Shown in pieces: positions 25,519 through 29,176 of a stretch of 53,690 nt of DNA. The stretch is from Chitinophagaceae bacterium (GTDB lineage: Bacteria; Bacteroidota; Bacteroidia; Chitinophagales; Chitinophagaceae). Each line of letters begins with the position of its first letter. Position 1 is the stretch's first letter. Location: NCBI GenBank assembly GCA_013140985.1, contig JABFRU010000038.1, forward strand, positions 1 to 53,690. The letters are read 5' to 3'. Below the pieces are notes generated by a model. That model had not been told where the DNA came from, ran no database searches, and saw only the letters and a list, made by a program, of their open reading frames with translations. The translations under genes and the position numbers were made by a program.

Positions 25519-26184
25519 ATGCTGCAATCATCAACACTTAAATTTCTCAAAGACTTAAAGAAGAATAATAACAAACCCTTGTTTGAGAAGAACCGTAAAG
25601 TGTATGAAGAGGCCAAAACTGATTTTGCTGCCTTTATTCAAAAAGTGATCGACCAGCATGGAAAAAACGATCCTACAATAAAATCTGTTGTTGCAAAAGA
25701 CTGTATGTTCCGTATCAACCGTGATGTTCGTTTTTCAAAAGATAAATCTCCTTACAAAACGAATATGGGTGCTTATATCAACCGCGGAGGTAAAAAATCT
25801 TTGTTTGGCGGATATTATTTTCATTGCGAGCCGGGCCATGCTTTTACCGGCGGTGGCTTATGGATGCCAATGCCTCCTGAATTAAATAAAGTAAGACAGG
25901 AGATCGATTACAATTTTGCAGATTTTAAAAAAATAATTGCTTCTAAAAAATTCAAATCGGTTTATAAAGATCTTTCCCGTGATGCAGAGTATGTTCTTAC
26001 CCGTGTGCCCAAAGGTTATGAAGCAGATAATCCTGCCGCTGAATATTTGAAATTAAAAAGTTTTGTAGCCCTGGTTCCTTTTAAGGACAGCGACCTTACT
26101 TCAAAGGATCTTGTAAAGAAAACGGTTGCTGCTTTTGAAGCATTGCAACCTGTTATAGAATTTATTAATAATACAATTGAATGA
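25519..26184 (+). CDS. DUF2461 / TIGR02453 family protein
   Basis: 221 residues, normal for the family. The signatures are LKFLKDLKKNNNKPLFEKNR at the start, FRINRDVRFSKDKSPYKTNM and the GGYYFHCEPGHAFTGGGLWM stretch. The family is widespread and its biochemical role is not known to me. No signal peptide, so cytoplasmic. It converges with asd, the two stops being 27 bp apart. Confidence 0.9.
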   Translation: MLQSSTLKFLKDLKKNNNKPLFEKNRKVYEEAKTDFAAFIQKVIDQHGKNDPTIKSVVAKDCMFRINRDVRFSKDKSPYKTNMGAYINRGGKKSLFGGYYFHCEPGHAFTGGGLWMPMPPELNKVRQEIDYNFADFKKIIASKKFKSVYKDLSRDAEYVLTRVPKGYEADNPAAEYLKLKSFVALVPFKDSDLTSKDLVKKTVAAFEALQPVIEFINNTIE

Positions 26185-26210: not shown

Positions 26211-27200
26211 TCATAATAAATTTTTCGCAAGCAGATACTCGGCGATCTGCACTGCATTAGTGGCAGCTCCTTTTCTTAAGTTATCTGAGACGATCCACAT
26301 GTTAAGTGTATTGGGTTGTGATTCATCTCTCCGTAATCTTCCCACAAACACTTCATCTTTTTCGTGTGCATCCATAGGCATTGGATATTGTTGATTTATG
26401 ATATCATCCACTACTACAATTCCCGGTGAAGATTGCAGCAACGATCTTACTTCATCCAGGTCAAAATCTTTTTCAAATTCCACATTCACACTTTCACTAT
26501 GTCCTCCCATTACCGGGATACGAACAGTGGTGGCCGTAACTCTGATCGAATCATCCCGCATGATCTTACAGGTTTCTTTTACCATTTTCATTTCTTCTTT
26601 TGTATATCCGTTTTCCAAAAACACATCTATCTGCGGGATCACATTCAGGTCAATCGGGTATTTATAAGCCCTCTCTCCTTCTATTCCCTGCCGTTCATTC
26701 ATTAGTTGTGTTACCGCTTTTACGCCGGTGCCTGTCACACTTTGATAAGTGCTGACAACAATTCTTTTGATCCTATATTTTTTATGCAGGGGATTCAATG
26801 CAACCACCATTTGAATGGTCGAACAATTCGGGTTCGCAATGATCTTATCATTTGCAGTCAATACATCTGCATTGATCTCCGGAACAATCAATGGTTTGGC
26901 AGGATCCATTCTCCATGCCGATGAATTATCAATGACAGTGATGCCTGCTTCGGCAAACTTTGGCGCCCATTCCAATGAAGTGCTGCCGCCCGCAGAAAAA
27001 ATTGCAACTGCCGGTTTCATTGCAATAGCATCAGCCATACTTACTACTTTATGTTTCATTCCCCTGAATTCAACTTCCTTTCCTACTGATCTTTCTGAAG
27101 CTACCGGCACTAATTCAGTGACCGGGAAATTTCTTTCGGCTAATACCTGAAGCATTTTAGAACCAACTAATCCTGTGGCGCCTACAACTGCAACTTTCAT
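26211..27200 (-). CDS. asd: Aspartate-semialdehyde dehydrogenase
   Basis: 329 residues from the ATG at 27200, where MKVAVVGATGLVG (Rossmann motif) begins; the frame is open 57 bp upstream without further homology. The active-site cysteine is C126 in NPNCSTIQM, and GGHSESVNVEFE holds the catalytic His. It makes aspartate semialdehyde, the branch point to Lys/diaminopimelate, Thr and Met. The 170 bp upstream hold a leader-peptide ORF and alternative hairpins that look like a transcription attenuator, which would couple asd to the charging of those amino acids. Confidence 0.97.
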   Translation of the reverse strand: MKVAVVGATGLVGSKMLQVLAERNFPVTELVPVASERSVGKEVEFRGMKHKVVSMADAIAMKPAVAIFSAGGSTSLEWAPKFAEAGITVIDNSSAWRMDPAKPLIVPEINADVLTANDKIIANPNCSTIQMVVALNPLHKKYRIKRIVVSTYQSVTGTGVKAVTQLMNERQGIEGERAYKYPIDLNVIPQIDVFLENGYTKEEMKMVKETCKIMRDDSIRVTATTVRIPVMGGHSESVNVEFEKDFDLDEVRSLLQSSPGIVVVDDIINQQYPMPMDAHEKDEVFVGRLRRDESQPNTLNMWIVSDNLRKGAATNAVQIAEYLLAKNLL

Positions 27201-27255
27201 TTGTTTTTTGTTTATTATTAAAAAAATTTTGTCAGACAGAGACCGCCAGACAAAC

Positions 27256-27281
27256 AAAAAGCCTCCCGGTTAAGGAAGGCT
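27256..27281 (-). terminator. Attenuator terminator upstream of asd
   Basis: On the minus strand AGCCTTCC, loop TTAACC and GGGAGGCT form an 8-bp stem (one G-T pair) followed by TTTTT. It stands between the leader peptide and the asd start codon, where a terminator makes sense only as a regulated one. Confidence 0.75.
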
Positions 27282-27354
27282 GCTAAATTTTTATGTTGGT
27301 ACATACATTACGCAAACCTTCCCTCAGGAATGTTTCTTATTGCGTTTTGTATGT
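27274..27354 (-). promoter_or_regulatory. asd leader with mutually exclusive hairpins
   Basis: Read on the minus strand: arm 1 (27341-27354, inside the leader ORF) pairs with arm 2 (27301-27316) through ACATAC/GTATGT and ACGCAA/TTGCGT. The segment GGAAGGTTTGC (27312-27322), which overlaps arm 2, can instead pair with GCAGCCTTCC (27274-27283), which is the left arm of the terminator. This is the classic 1:2, 2:3, 3:4 layout of ribosome-mediated attenuation: stalling in the leader ORF would free the antiterminator. Confidence 0.65.
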
Positions 27355-27368
27355 TTCATTTTTGTCAT
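27324..27368 (-). CDS. asd leader peptide MTKMKHTKRNKKHS
   Basis: A 14-codon ORF ending 124 bp before asd. Of its residues five are Lys, two Thr, two Met and one Asn, that is, mostly products of the aspartate pathway that asd serves. A second in-frame ATG at 27359 would give 11 residues. The ORF starts at or within a few bases of the predicted transcription start, so it may be leaderless. Codons 6 to 9 overlap arm 1 of the attenuator hairpin. Coding is inferred from position, composition and RNA folding, not from homology. Confidence 0.6.
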   Translation of the reverse strand: MTKMKHTKRNKKHS

Positions 27369-27373
27369 CCCGG

Positions 27374-27405
27374 CAAAAATAGGCTGGCACCAGCTTTATA
27401 ACAAA
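27374..27405 (-). promoter_or_regulatory. Promoter of the asd leader transcript
   Basis: On the minus strand TTTG (27402-27405) is followed after 20 bp by TATTTTTG (27374-27381), an exact match to the Bacteroidota sigma-70-type consensus TTTG-N19-20-TAnnTTTG. Transcription should start about 5 bases later, around the ATG of the leader peptide. Confidence 0.6.
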
Positions 27406-27466
27406 TAATCAGCAGAAATTTTATTGGCCTTATTTGTATTACAACCGTTTGTTTTACCTTGTATCT

Positions 27467-29176
27467 ATGAAAATGGTTCGCCTGCTGTTGCTGATCTTTT
27501 TATTTCCATCATACTTATCTGCACAAAACAGGTATGATGTAGTGATTGATGAAATAATGGCTGATCCAACACCACAAGTCGGTTTACCTAATAATGAATG
27601 GCTTGAATTAAAGAATACAACTACAGCTCCTATCAATTTACAAAACTGGAGAATTGGTGATGCGACAGGACAAAGCGGGCCAATGCCTAATTTCACTTTA
27701 CAACCTGATAGTTTTGTCATTGTTTGTACCGGAAGTGCCGTAGCAGCCATGAGTGCATTTGGTACAACCATTTCTGTTACAAGTTTTCCCTCACTGGATA
27801 ATGATGGTGACCAGCTATTTTTAAGAGCAGCTAATGGAAGAACTATTCATGCAGTTAGTTATACTTCCGGCTGGTATCAAAATGAAGTAAAAAAGGATGG
27901 AGGTTGGACATTGGAGATGATAGATACCAAAAGTCCCTGTGCAGGTAGCAGTAACTGGAAGGCAAGTATCAATGCAACCGGAGGAACACCCGGAAAGAAA
28001 AATTCTATTGATGCTATTAATACAGATGCAACCGCTCCGCAATTAAAAAGAGCTTATACAACAGATAATATAACGATCATCCTCGTATATGATGAGCCGG
28101 TGGATAGTTTAACAGGAGCAACACTTGCTAACTATTCTATTGACGGGGGGTTACTATTGACCAGCGCAACAGCTATTGCTCCTTTGTTTAATTTGGTTCA
28201 GTTAAAATTAAGTACACCCATGCTGGCCAATACTGTTTATACCATTACAGCCAGTAATGTGAAGGATTGTAAGGGCAATACCATCGGCGCTGCGAACAAA
28301 GTCAAAGTTGGACTGCCCGCAGATGCGGCTGCAGGCGAATGGATCATCAATGAAATATTATTCAACCCAAGATCCGGTGGTTTTGATTTTGTAGAATTCT
28401 ACAATAACAGCAATAAAATATTTGATGCTTCCAAATTATATATTGCTAACCGCAATACAAGTGGTGTGATCAGCTCTGTAAAAGCATTGAGTACCGTTCC
28501 TTTTTATGTTTTTCCCGGCGATCACATTGTAGAAACAGAAGATGCAGAAAACCTGGCGCTCCAATATCTTGTAAAGAACCCTGACAATGTATTGGTCATC
28601 TCTTCTCCCCCATCTTTTTCCGACGATGAAGGTGATGTGATTGCTCTCAACTTCCAGGGAAATGTGATTGATGAAGTAAAATATAAAGACGACTGGCATT
28701 TCAAACTCATAGATAATGAGGAAGGTGTTTCCCTGGAAAGAATTGATCCTGCAGGAACATCACAGGATGAAACGAACTGGCATAGCGCAGCATCAACAGC
28801 AGGTTTTGCAACACCTACTTATAAAAATTCTCAATACAAATTATTGAACAGCATTACTGCGACTGTTGAAATTGTTCCCAAAGTTTTTTCTCCCGACAAT
28901 GATGGCTTTGATGATATTGTTACCATTCAATATGCAGTAACCGAACCAGGCTATGTAGCCAATGTTACCATCTTTGATGCAGCCGGAAGACCCATCCGTA
29001 ATTTTGTCCGCAACGGCACATTGGGATTAAAAGGTTATTGGAACTGGGACGGCCTTGATGATAAAGGGTTGAAATTACCAGTGGGCACTTATGTTATCTT
29101 CACCGAAATATTTAACCTGCAAGGAAAAAAACAACATTTTAAAAATGCTGTAGTACTTGCAAGAAAATTAAACTAA
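27467..29176 (+). CDS. Lamin-tail-domain surface protein with FlgD/CHU_C-like C-terminus
   Basis: 569 residues from the ATG at 27467, followed by a signal peptide (VRLLLLIFLFPSYLSAQ). Two lamin-tail domains are visible: residues about 20-140 (IDEIMADPTPQVGLPNNEWL) and about 285-420 (WIINEILFNPRSGGFDFVEF). An Ig-like unit lies between them (APQLKRAYTTDNITIILVYD). The C-terminal 100 residues (KVFSPDNDGFDDIVTIQYAV and GYWNWDGLDDKGLKLPVGTY) resemble gliding-motility/T9SS C-terminal and FlgD Ig-like domains. It is thus likely exported by T9SS; role unknown. Confidence 0.85.
   Translation: MKMVRLLLLIFLFPSYLSAQNRYDVVIDEIMADPTPQVGLPNNEWLELKNTTTAPINLQNWRIGDATGQSGPMPNFTLQPDSFVIVCTGSAVAAMSAFGTTISVTSFPSLDNDGDQLFLRAANGRTIHAVSYTSGWYQNEVKKDGGWTLEMIDTKSPCAGSSNWKASINATGGTPGKKNSIDAINTDATAPQLKRAYTTDNITIILVYDEPVDSLTGATLANYSIDGGLLLTSATAIAPLFNLVQLKLSTPMLANTVYTITASNVKDCKGNTIGAANKVKVGLPADAAAGEWIINEILFNPRSGGFDFVEFYNNSNKIFDASKLYIANRNTSGVISSVKALSTVPFYVFPGDHIVETEDAENLALQYLVKNPDNVLVISSPPSFSDDEGDVIALNFQGNVIDEVKYKDDWHFKLIDNEEGVSLERIDPAGTSQDETNWHSAASTAGFATPTYKNSQYKLLNSITATVEIVPKVFSPDNDGFDDIVTIQYAVTEPGYVANVTIFDAAGRPIRNFVRNGTLGLKGYWNWDGLDDKGLKLPVGTYVIFTEIFNLQGKKQHFKNAVVLARKLN

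Follow-up and report, generated by a model that had tools for sequence, protein, structure and literature searches.

A putative leader-peptide attenuator rich in lysine codons upstream of asd in Chitinophagaceae

The asd gene of a Chitinophagaceae bacterium is preceded by a short leader that very probably acts as a ribosome-mediated transcription attenuator. Computation gives the parts of this leader, their conservation and co-variation, the coding constraint on its reading frame, and a match between leader codons and biosynthetic pathway at asd, dapA and hisG.

Leader-peptide attenuation is textbook knowledge for enteric bacteria. The evidence for it is thin in Bacteroidota, a phylum without classical sigma-70 promoters and, for the most part, without Shine-Dalgarno sequences. 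The control usually ascribed to lysine genes is a riboswitch; a leader working through lysine codons would extend attenuation to a further amino acid.

Results

Parts of the asd leader

The window is the whole stretch of DNA analysed, 53,690 nucleotides of contig JABFRU010000038.1. The asd gene was identified by two protein-family models, TIGR01296 asd_B (428.7 bits, cut-off 324.2) and NF011456 (450.3 bits, cut-off 223), in agreement with the assignment in an earlier note on this DNA. The same note had described a promoter, a leader ORF, an antiterminator, a terminator and a third hairpin over the leader codons. When the sequence was re-read, all of them lay at the coordinates it had given (Table 1). 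A gene for a TIGR02453 family protein (25519-26184, plus strand) is convergent with asd.

Table 1. Features of the asd leader and gene in the window.
Feature	Position	Strand	Basis
-33 promoter element TTTG	27402..27405	-	sequence; 20-nt spacer to the -7 box; consensus in part of PMC7366714
-7 promoter element TATTTTTG (TAnnTTTG)	27374..27381	-	sequence
Predicted transcription start, 1 nt before the leader ATG	27369	-	inferred from the box position, after part of PMC9723704
Leader ORF MTKMKHTKRNKKHS, 14 codons, ATG 27368-27366, TGA 27326-27324	27324..27368	-	sequence, homologous ORFs and synonymous pattern
Region 1, 5' arm of the 1:2 (protector) hairpin, codons 5-9	27342..27354	-	pairs with 27301-27313; co-variation
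Region 2, GGGAAGG (antiterminator arm, 27323-27317), then 3' arm of the 1:2 hairpin	27301..27323	-	sequence and comparisons
Regions 3 and 4, intrinsic terminator stem-loop AGCCTTCC...GGGAGGCT	27260..27281	-	terminator scan; co-variation
T-rich tract of the terminator, TTTTTGTTTG	27251..27260	-	sequence
asd, aspartate-semialdehyde dehydrogenase, 329 aa	26211..27200	-	protein-family models

The antiterminator pairs GGAAGG (27322-27317) with CCTTCC (27279-27274) and is extended by GC with GC (27313-27312 with 27283-27282). The 5' arm of the terminator (region 3) can also pair with region 2, and the common arm proposed for antiterminator and terminator is confirmed at these positions. The third hairpin joins ACATACAAAACGC (27354-27342, from the last base of codon 5 to codon 9) to GCGTAATGTATGT (27313-27301) by 11 pairs with 2 mismatches. 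A terminator scan gave 2 overlapping sites at this stem-loop, versus 0.3 in shuffled sequences. The leader fold has a z-score of -2.7, and equally good folds were seen in 4 of 200 shuffles.

Promoter and start of the message

A sigma-70 scan of the window's leader region found no promoter, as expected for Bacteroidota. The two elements in Table 1 do match the Bacteroidota consensus TTTG / TAnnTTTG, given in parts of PMC7366714 and PMC9723704, exactly as had been claimed. In 76 of 131 asd leaders, versus 3.1 expected, TAnnTTTG lies no more than 25 nt ahead of the leader ATG. Its distance to the ATG is 7-9 nt in 54 of these 76 and 5 nt in the window. The box lies at -12 to -5 in the Flavobacterium psychrophilum data presented in part of PMC9723704, so transcripts would begin 1-5 nt before the AUG. 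The promoter position implies that the leader ORF is translated from a nearly leaderless message. The earlier note mentioned neither this nor the leaders before dapA and hisG described below. In the parts of two studies that deal with them, messages of this kind are in the minority among Bacteroidota (5.5%, PMC9723704) and 5' UTRs shorter than 10 nt make up about 3.7% (PMC7366714).

Conservation of the leader

Loci of asd were taken from 58 relatives, from the best 80 matches of a scan of named genomes, and from the 109 of 184 family genomes with asd whose Asd is most similar to that of the window; the window's own genome was additional. After removal of duplicates and of loci with less than 90 nt of upstream DNA, 219 loci gave 203 distinct upstream regions. 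Five of the 219 failed the start-codon pattern and are left out of the 203; four of these five carry the leader.

A profile seeded with the window leader and then iterated detected the leader in 133 of the 203 regions, window included. By source, it was found in 94 of 100 regions from the family sample, 25 of 76 from named genomes and 14 of 27 from relatives. An ATG-initiated leader ORF of 13-23 codons is present in 131 of the 133, which bears out the 14-codon ORF proposed for the window. The remaining two are L199, which keeps the peptide motif and is missing the ATG, and L220, which looks spurious. All 131 leaders have a terminator 24-51 nt past the leader stop codon. Of 655 dinucleotide shuffles subjected to these terminator criteria, 27 (4%) pass, and none scores as high as its native sequence. 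The presence of the leader in 133 of 203 regions, with conserved ORF and terminator, is not due to chance.

Among the best 80 named genomes listed, the Asd proteins closest to that of the window (82-89% identity) come from Flavihumibacter, Limnovirga, Filimonas, Niabella, Niastella and Sediminibacterium, which we take to be members of the Chitinophagaceae. Leader carriers include all six, among them the culturable Niastella yeongjuensis (L045), Niabella ginsengisoli (L041) and Sediminibacterium roseum (L051). Among the matches listed, the leader was not found at the asd loci of Mucilaginibacter, Pedobacter, Sphingobacterium, Spirosoma, Dyadobacter or Hymenobacter.

Four genomes of 1.8-2.6 Mb from one genus have asd without the leader (L016, L017, L019 and L024). 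An Asd match was absent at E 1e-40 from 12 of the 58 relatives, many of them small. Absence of the leader from small genomes may possibly reflect loss with genome reduction.

Coding constraint on the leader peptide

The peptide core is K-H-T-K-R-x-K-K, and KHTKR occurs in most asd leaders. We compared 61 disjoint pairs of leaders over the eight-codon core. In the leader frame, 76 of 123 single-base codon changes (62%) are synonymous, versus 13 of 120 (11%) and 26 of 146 (18%) in the other two frames. Codon position 3 accounts for 81 of the 123 differences. By this pattern the leader ORF is under coding constraint, and its translation is predicted. Both AAA and AAG are used in the Lys columns. 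The third codon after the conserved Thr encodes Thr in 61, Ile in 28, Asn in 16 and Ser in 11 of 131 leaders, and all four Thr codons are used there.

Co-variation of the alternative stems

To compare native stems with mismatched ones, arms were swapped between species in the 131 leaders. The duplex energy was -12.6 for native and -9.6 for swapped arms in 1:2, -14.3 and -12.6 in 2:3, and -18.0 and -14.8 in 3:4. The native advantage was reached in 0 of 10,000 permutations for each stem. Apart from comparisons of disjoint pairs, these and our other statistics treat related species as independent; the native advantage likewise held on 79 leaders less than 80% alike. In disjoint pairs of 62-70% similarity, native arms were better in 59, 53 and 62 of 64 pairs for 1:2, 2:3 and 3:4, respectively. 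The corresponding numbers were 41, 35 and 50 of 60 at 70-80% similarity, and 14, 12 and 24 of 36 at 80-95%. In this last band the remainder were mostly equal for 1:2 and 2:3 (for 1:2, native better in 14, equal in 15, worse in 7).

Among 40 aligned leaders, 11 of the 21 pairs of 1:2 and 3:4 have changed on both sides, a value reached in 0 of 500 shuffles. The protector hairpin, which overlaps the regulatory codons, is thus supported by both the native-arm and the co-variation tests. For 2:3 alone, co-variation on these 40 closer leaders did not go beyond shuffles (140-174 of 500 reach the observed values). This is because 2:3 hardly varies; 97.5% of its cells are paired in the 40 leaders. In 129 of the 131 leaders, the native 2:3 arms form a duplex of -5 kcal/mol or lower. 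Compensatory changes had been proposed as a check on the attenuator; they are found in 1:2 and 3:4 and are weakest for the 2:3 antiterminator. The alignment with relatives could have refuted the claim, and the claim survives it, with leader ORF and stems conserved.

A purine-rich motif is present in 124 of 131 leaders and starts between -14 and +6 nt from the stop codon. Folding was modelled on RNA cut short of the 3' arm of the terminator. With a ribosome on Lys codon 5 or 8 (window numbering), the predicted probability of 2:3 has a mean of 0.89. With the ribosome at the stop codon the mean is 0.05, a result that is partly geometry by construction, and the stalled value is higher in 131 of 131. 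In the model, the stop codon lies where a ribosome would mask the antiterminator arm. An equilibrium model without a ribosome predicts antitermination (2:3 mean 0.69; 0.98 in the window). Ribosome-free RNA is thus not predicted to terminate. Either 1:2 has to fold ahead of 2:3 while the RNA is being made, or leaders that are not translated are read through.

Leaders of the same architecture before dapA and hisG

A covariance model, R1, was built from the 40 asd leaders. R1 rests on an RNAalifold structure of their alignment that is mixed and lacks the 1:2 stem; it serves for detection and makes no statement on structure. At E up to 1e-5, R1 matches 224 of 394 family genomes and 70 of 101 genera; these matches were assigned to genes in part, so some of the 224 may have hisG or dapA leaders only. 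In a sample of the phylum, 13 of 395 genomes match at E up to 1e-6. Eleven of the 13 belong to the window's family; the two matches outside it, L243 and L245, are plain terminators and were rejected.

We re-ran R1 on 29 family genomes with two or more matches and obtained 60 places. Leaving out G756:C81 and G699:C7, 58 were assigned to a gene: 28 to asd, 14 to dapA and 16 to hisG. For 41 places (11 asd, 14 dapA, 16 hisG) the assignment was by the first downstream gene, with identity checked against NCBIfam for one dapA and one hisG; the 17 further asd places were assigned by coincidence with known asd positions. Among the 58, the leader recurs only before these three genes. The dapA places (L239, L246, L248, L251, L257-L259, L261-L263, L265, L267, L269 and L277) span five genera labels (g25, g108, g52, g47 and g59). 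Their leaders are rich in Lys (mean 4.6, minimum 3). Leaders of the same architecture before hisG (L250, L252-L256, L264, L266, L268, L270, L272, L274-L276, L278 and L279) are poly-His, with a mean of 5.0 and a minimum of 4 His codons, for example MKQTTHTHHHHLPIG. No Rfam family matched three of these hisG loci (L250, L255 and L268) at gathering score.

In both the dapA and the hisG set, 3:4 co-varies. Co-variation of 1:2 is clear at dapA (5 of 5000 permutations) and weak at hisG (183 of 5000). For 2:3 there is none at dapA (2196 of 5000) and a weak signal at hisG (312 of 5000). A model made from asd leaders only thus found dapA, the first gene dedicated to lysine, with Lys codons and hisG, the first gene of histidine synthesis, with His codons, which indicates that the codons, rather than the peptide or an aptamer, carry the specificity. 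This match is the strongest argument for specificity borne by codons.

The window's own genome has 12 R1 matches at E up to 1, of which the asd leader alone is convincing. This was judged from the sequence of L223 and L225 and from ORF lists of L226-L229, with four matches left out. L223 and L225 are terminator-like regions, and L224 is the opposite strand of the asd leader. By eye, no such leader stands before the two aspartokinase genes of this genome or before the one of its two dapA-like genes that is above cut-off. No hisG was found at E 1e-10 in this assembly, which is given as complete; the organism is perhaps a histidine auxotroph, or there is a gap.

Amino acid sensed by the leader

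The earlier note had named Lys, Thr and Met as signals. Each of the 131 asd leaders has three or more Lys, although the set was gathered by sequence similarity and favours Lys-rich ones. Its presence in all of these and in 14 of 14 dapA leaders makes lysyl-tRNA the likeliest signal. Since dapA makes products of the lysine branch only and its leaders keep Lys, lysine is probably the main signal if the leader is an attenuator. The proposal for Thr is plausible, and that for Met finds no support: 42 of 131 leaders have no Met beyond the start codon, and on the attenuator reading Met is a very unlikely signal. His and Arg were also rejected as signals, as they are missing from 15 and 35 of 131 leaders, respectively.

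Whether threonine is sensed as well is a closer matter. The leader may sense lysine alone, pairing in the 1:2 stem being all that preserves its Thr codons. Codon 7, the Thr codon ACA, lies within this stem, where pair 31-85 is invariant in 40 leaders. Thr is missing from 9 of 131 asd leaders and Lys from none, and Lys-rich leaders also stand before dapA. Against this, we compared the two leaders in 12 genomes that have both. Three codons after the conserved Thr, Thr is found by eye in 12 of 12 asd leaders and 0 of 12 dapA leaders. In the whole peptide, the Thr count is higher at asd in 7 genomes, equal in 5 and lower in none (Wilcoxon p 0.016). The 12 genomes span three genera only, so a Thr input at asd is suggested rather than proven. 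All nine leaders without Thr have Ile; Ile is missing from 35 of 131, and no leader is without both. Thr with Ile as its alternative recalls thrL. On balance we lean slightly towards threonine as a real co-signal at asd within the attenuator reading, and consider sensing of lysine alone a tentative, less probable alternative.

Discussion

The earlier proposal that asd is attenuated through a leader peptide bearing codons of its end products is well supported by the comparative evidence. From this evidence we infer the identity of the signal, the stalling and the direction of control, as follows. Transcription would start at the leader AUG or within a few bases of it, and the leader would be translated from the nearly leaderless mRNA as RNA polymerase proceeds. 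When lysyl-tRNA, and probably also threonyl-tRNA, is charged, the ribosome would reach the stop codon and cover GGGAAGG in region 2. The terminator would then form and transcription would end about 115 nt into the message. When charged tRNA is short, the ribosome would stall within K-H-T-K-R-x-K-K, at one of its Lys or Thr codons. The stalled ribosome would block the 1:2 hairpin, allowing 2:3 to pair and asd to be transcribed.

A different source of stalling would be the nascent peptide itself, K-H-T-K-R-x-K-K arresting the ribosome, perhaps with a ligand. The core is well conserved, down to its His and Arg, neither of which the pathway makes. However, His and Arg are each missing from part of the leaders (see above), and most of their codons lie in the 1:2 stem, whose pairing can hold them and to which we attribute their conservation. 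The same architecture also bears the wholly different poly-His peptide before hisG. We regard peptide arrest as very unlikely.

Still less probable is a riboswitch that binds a ligand, with the ORF incidental. A structured, conserved 5' leader before a lysine-pathway gene is where lysine riboswitches sit in other bacteria. Yet Rfam gave only two sub-threshold matches at 27100-27600 of the window, Phe_leader at 21.4 bits (threshold 55) and rliB, and only a tRNA at threshold in eight related loci. Membership of a known leader or riboswitch family (Thr_leader, His_leader, Phe_leader, Lysine riboswitch, T-box) was rejected, with no match at gathering score. The coding constraint also argues against a riboswitch, and no aptamer core can be seen in the pairs, all of them local arms of alternative hairpins. 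This explanation is extremely unlikely.

With Lys encoded by AAA or AAG, intergenic DNA that is AT-rich commonly has short ORFs full of Lys, and some relatives are missing the leader, but a chance ORF beside an ordinary terminator with no regulatory role is hardly conceivable given the conservation, the synonymous pattern, the terminator scores against shuffles, the co-variation and the recurrence before asd, dapA and hisG only among the assigned places.

The asd leader resembles thrL, hisL and trpL of enteric bacteria, which likewise have a short ORF rich in end-product codons, a protector, an antiterminator and a terminator with common arms, and the terminator before the first gene. E. coli thrL has eight Thr and four Ile codons, according to part of PMC12925634. 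Unlike these leaders, the one described here precedes asd (dapA in some relatives), has Lys codons first and belongs to a different phylum. Its ORF starts almost at the predicted transcript start, and it has no Rfam match at threshold. A precedent for such a leaderless start is the ilvBNC leader peptide of C. glutamicum, whose start codon, as stated in part of PMC11857589, is one nucleotide from the transcription start. This placement agrees with our prediction, whereas the codons there are for branched-chain amino acids and the organism is one of the Actinobacteria. The lysine riboswitch (L box) of lysC likewise controls lysine-pathway genes at the RNA level. In contrast to the predicted leader, it binds lysine directly, and no Rfam lysine-riboswitch match was found in the window even at E up to 5.

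Attenuation is known; what is new here is the gene (asd, dapA), the amino acid (Lys) and, given the hints from F. psychrophilum, to some extent the phylum. Part of PMC9723704 reports 'strong clues' of leader-peptide attenuation before amino-acid biosynthesis operons in F. psychrophilum, of the same phylum as the asd leader and a different family; gene and amino acid are unnamed in that part. According to part of a 2010 survey (PMC2965389), leader-peptide attenuation had been known from Proteobacteria and Actinobacteria only, until that survey added a case in Firmicutes. In those parts of the open-licence PMC literature that came up in our search, there was no lysine-codon leader attenuator and no asd or dapA leader in Bacteroidota; Lopatovskaya et al. 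2010 may have related predictions. The case is evenly balanced for the wider claim that a leader-peptide attenuator here senses lysine for the first time, that it gates the branch-point gene asd with two inputs (Lys or Thr) and is translated from a leaderless message, and that it is one of a Chitinophagaceae-wide set whose common architecture is re-coded by pathway (Lys and Thr at asd, Lys at dapA, His at hisG).

For the organism, this arrangement means that the asd enzyme is probably made only when lysine, and perhaps threonine, is short. The step is common to lysine, threonine and methionine synthesis, and the question of two inputs is directly testable. For the family, the leaders of asd, dapA and hisG amount to a natural codon-swap experiment.
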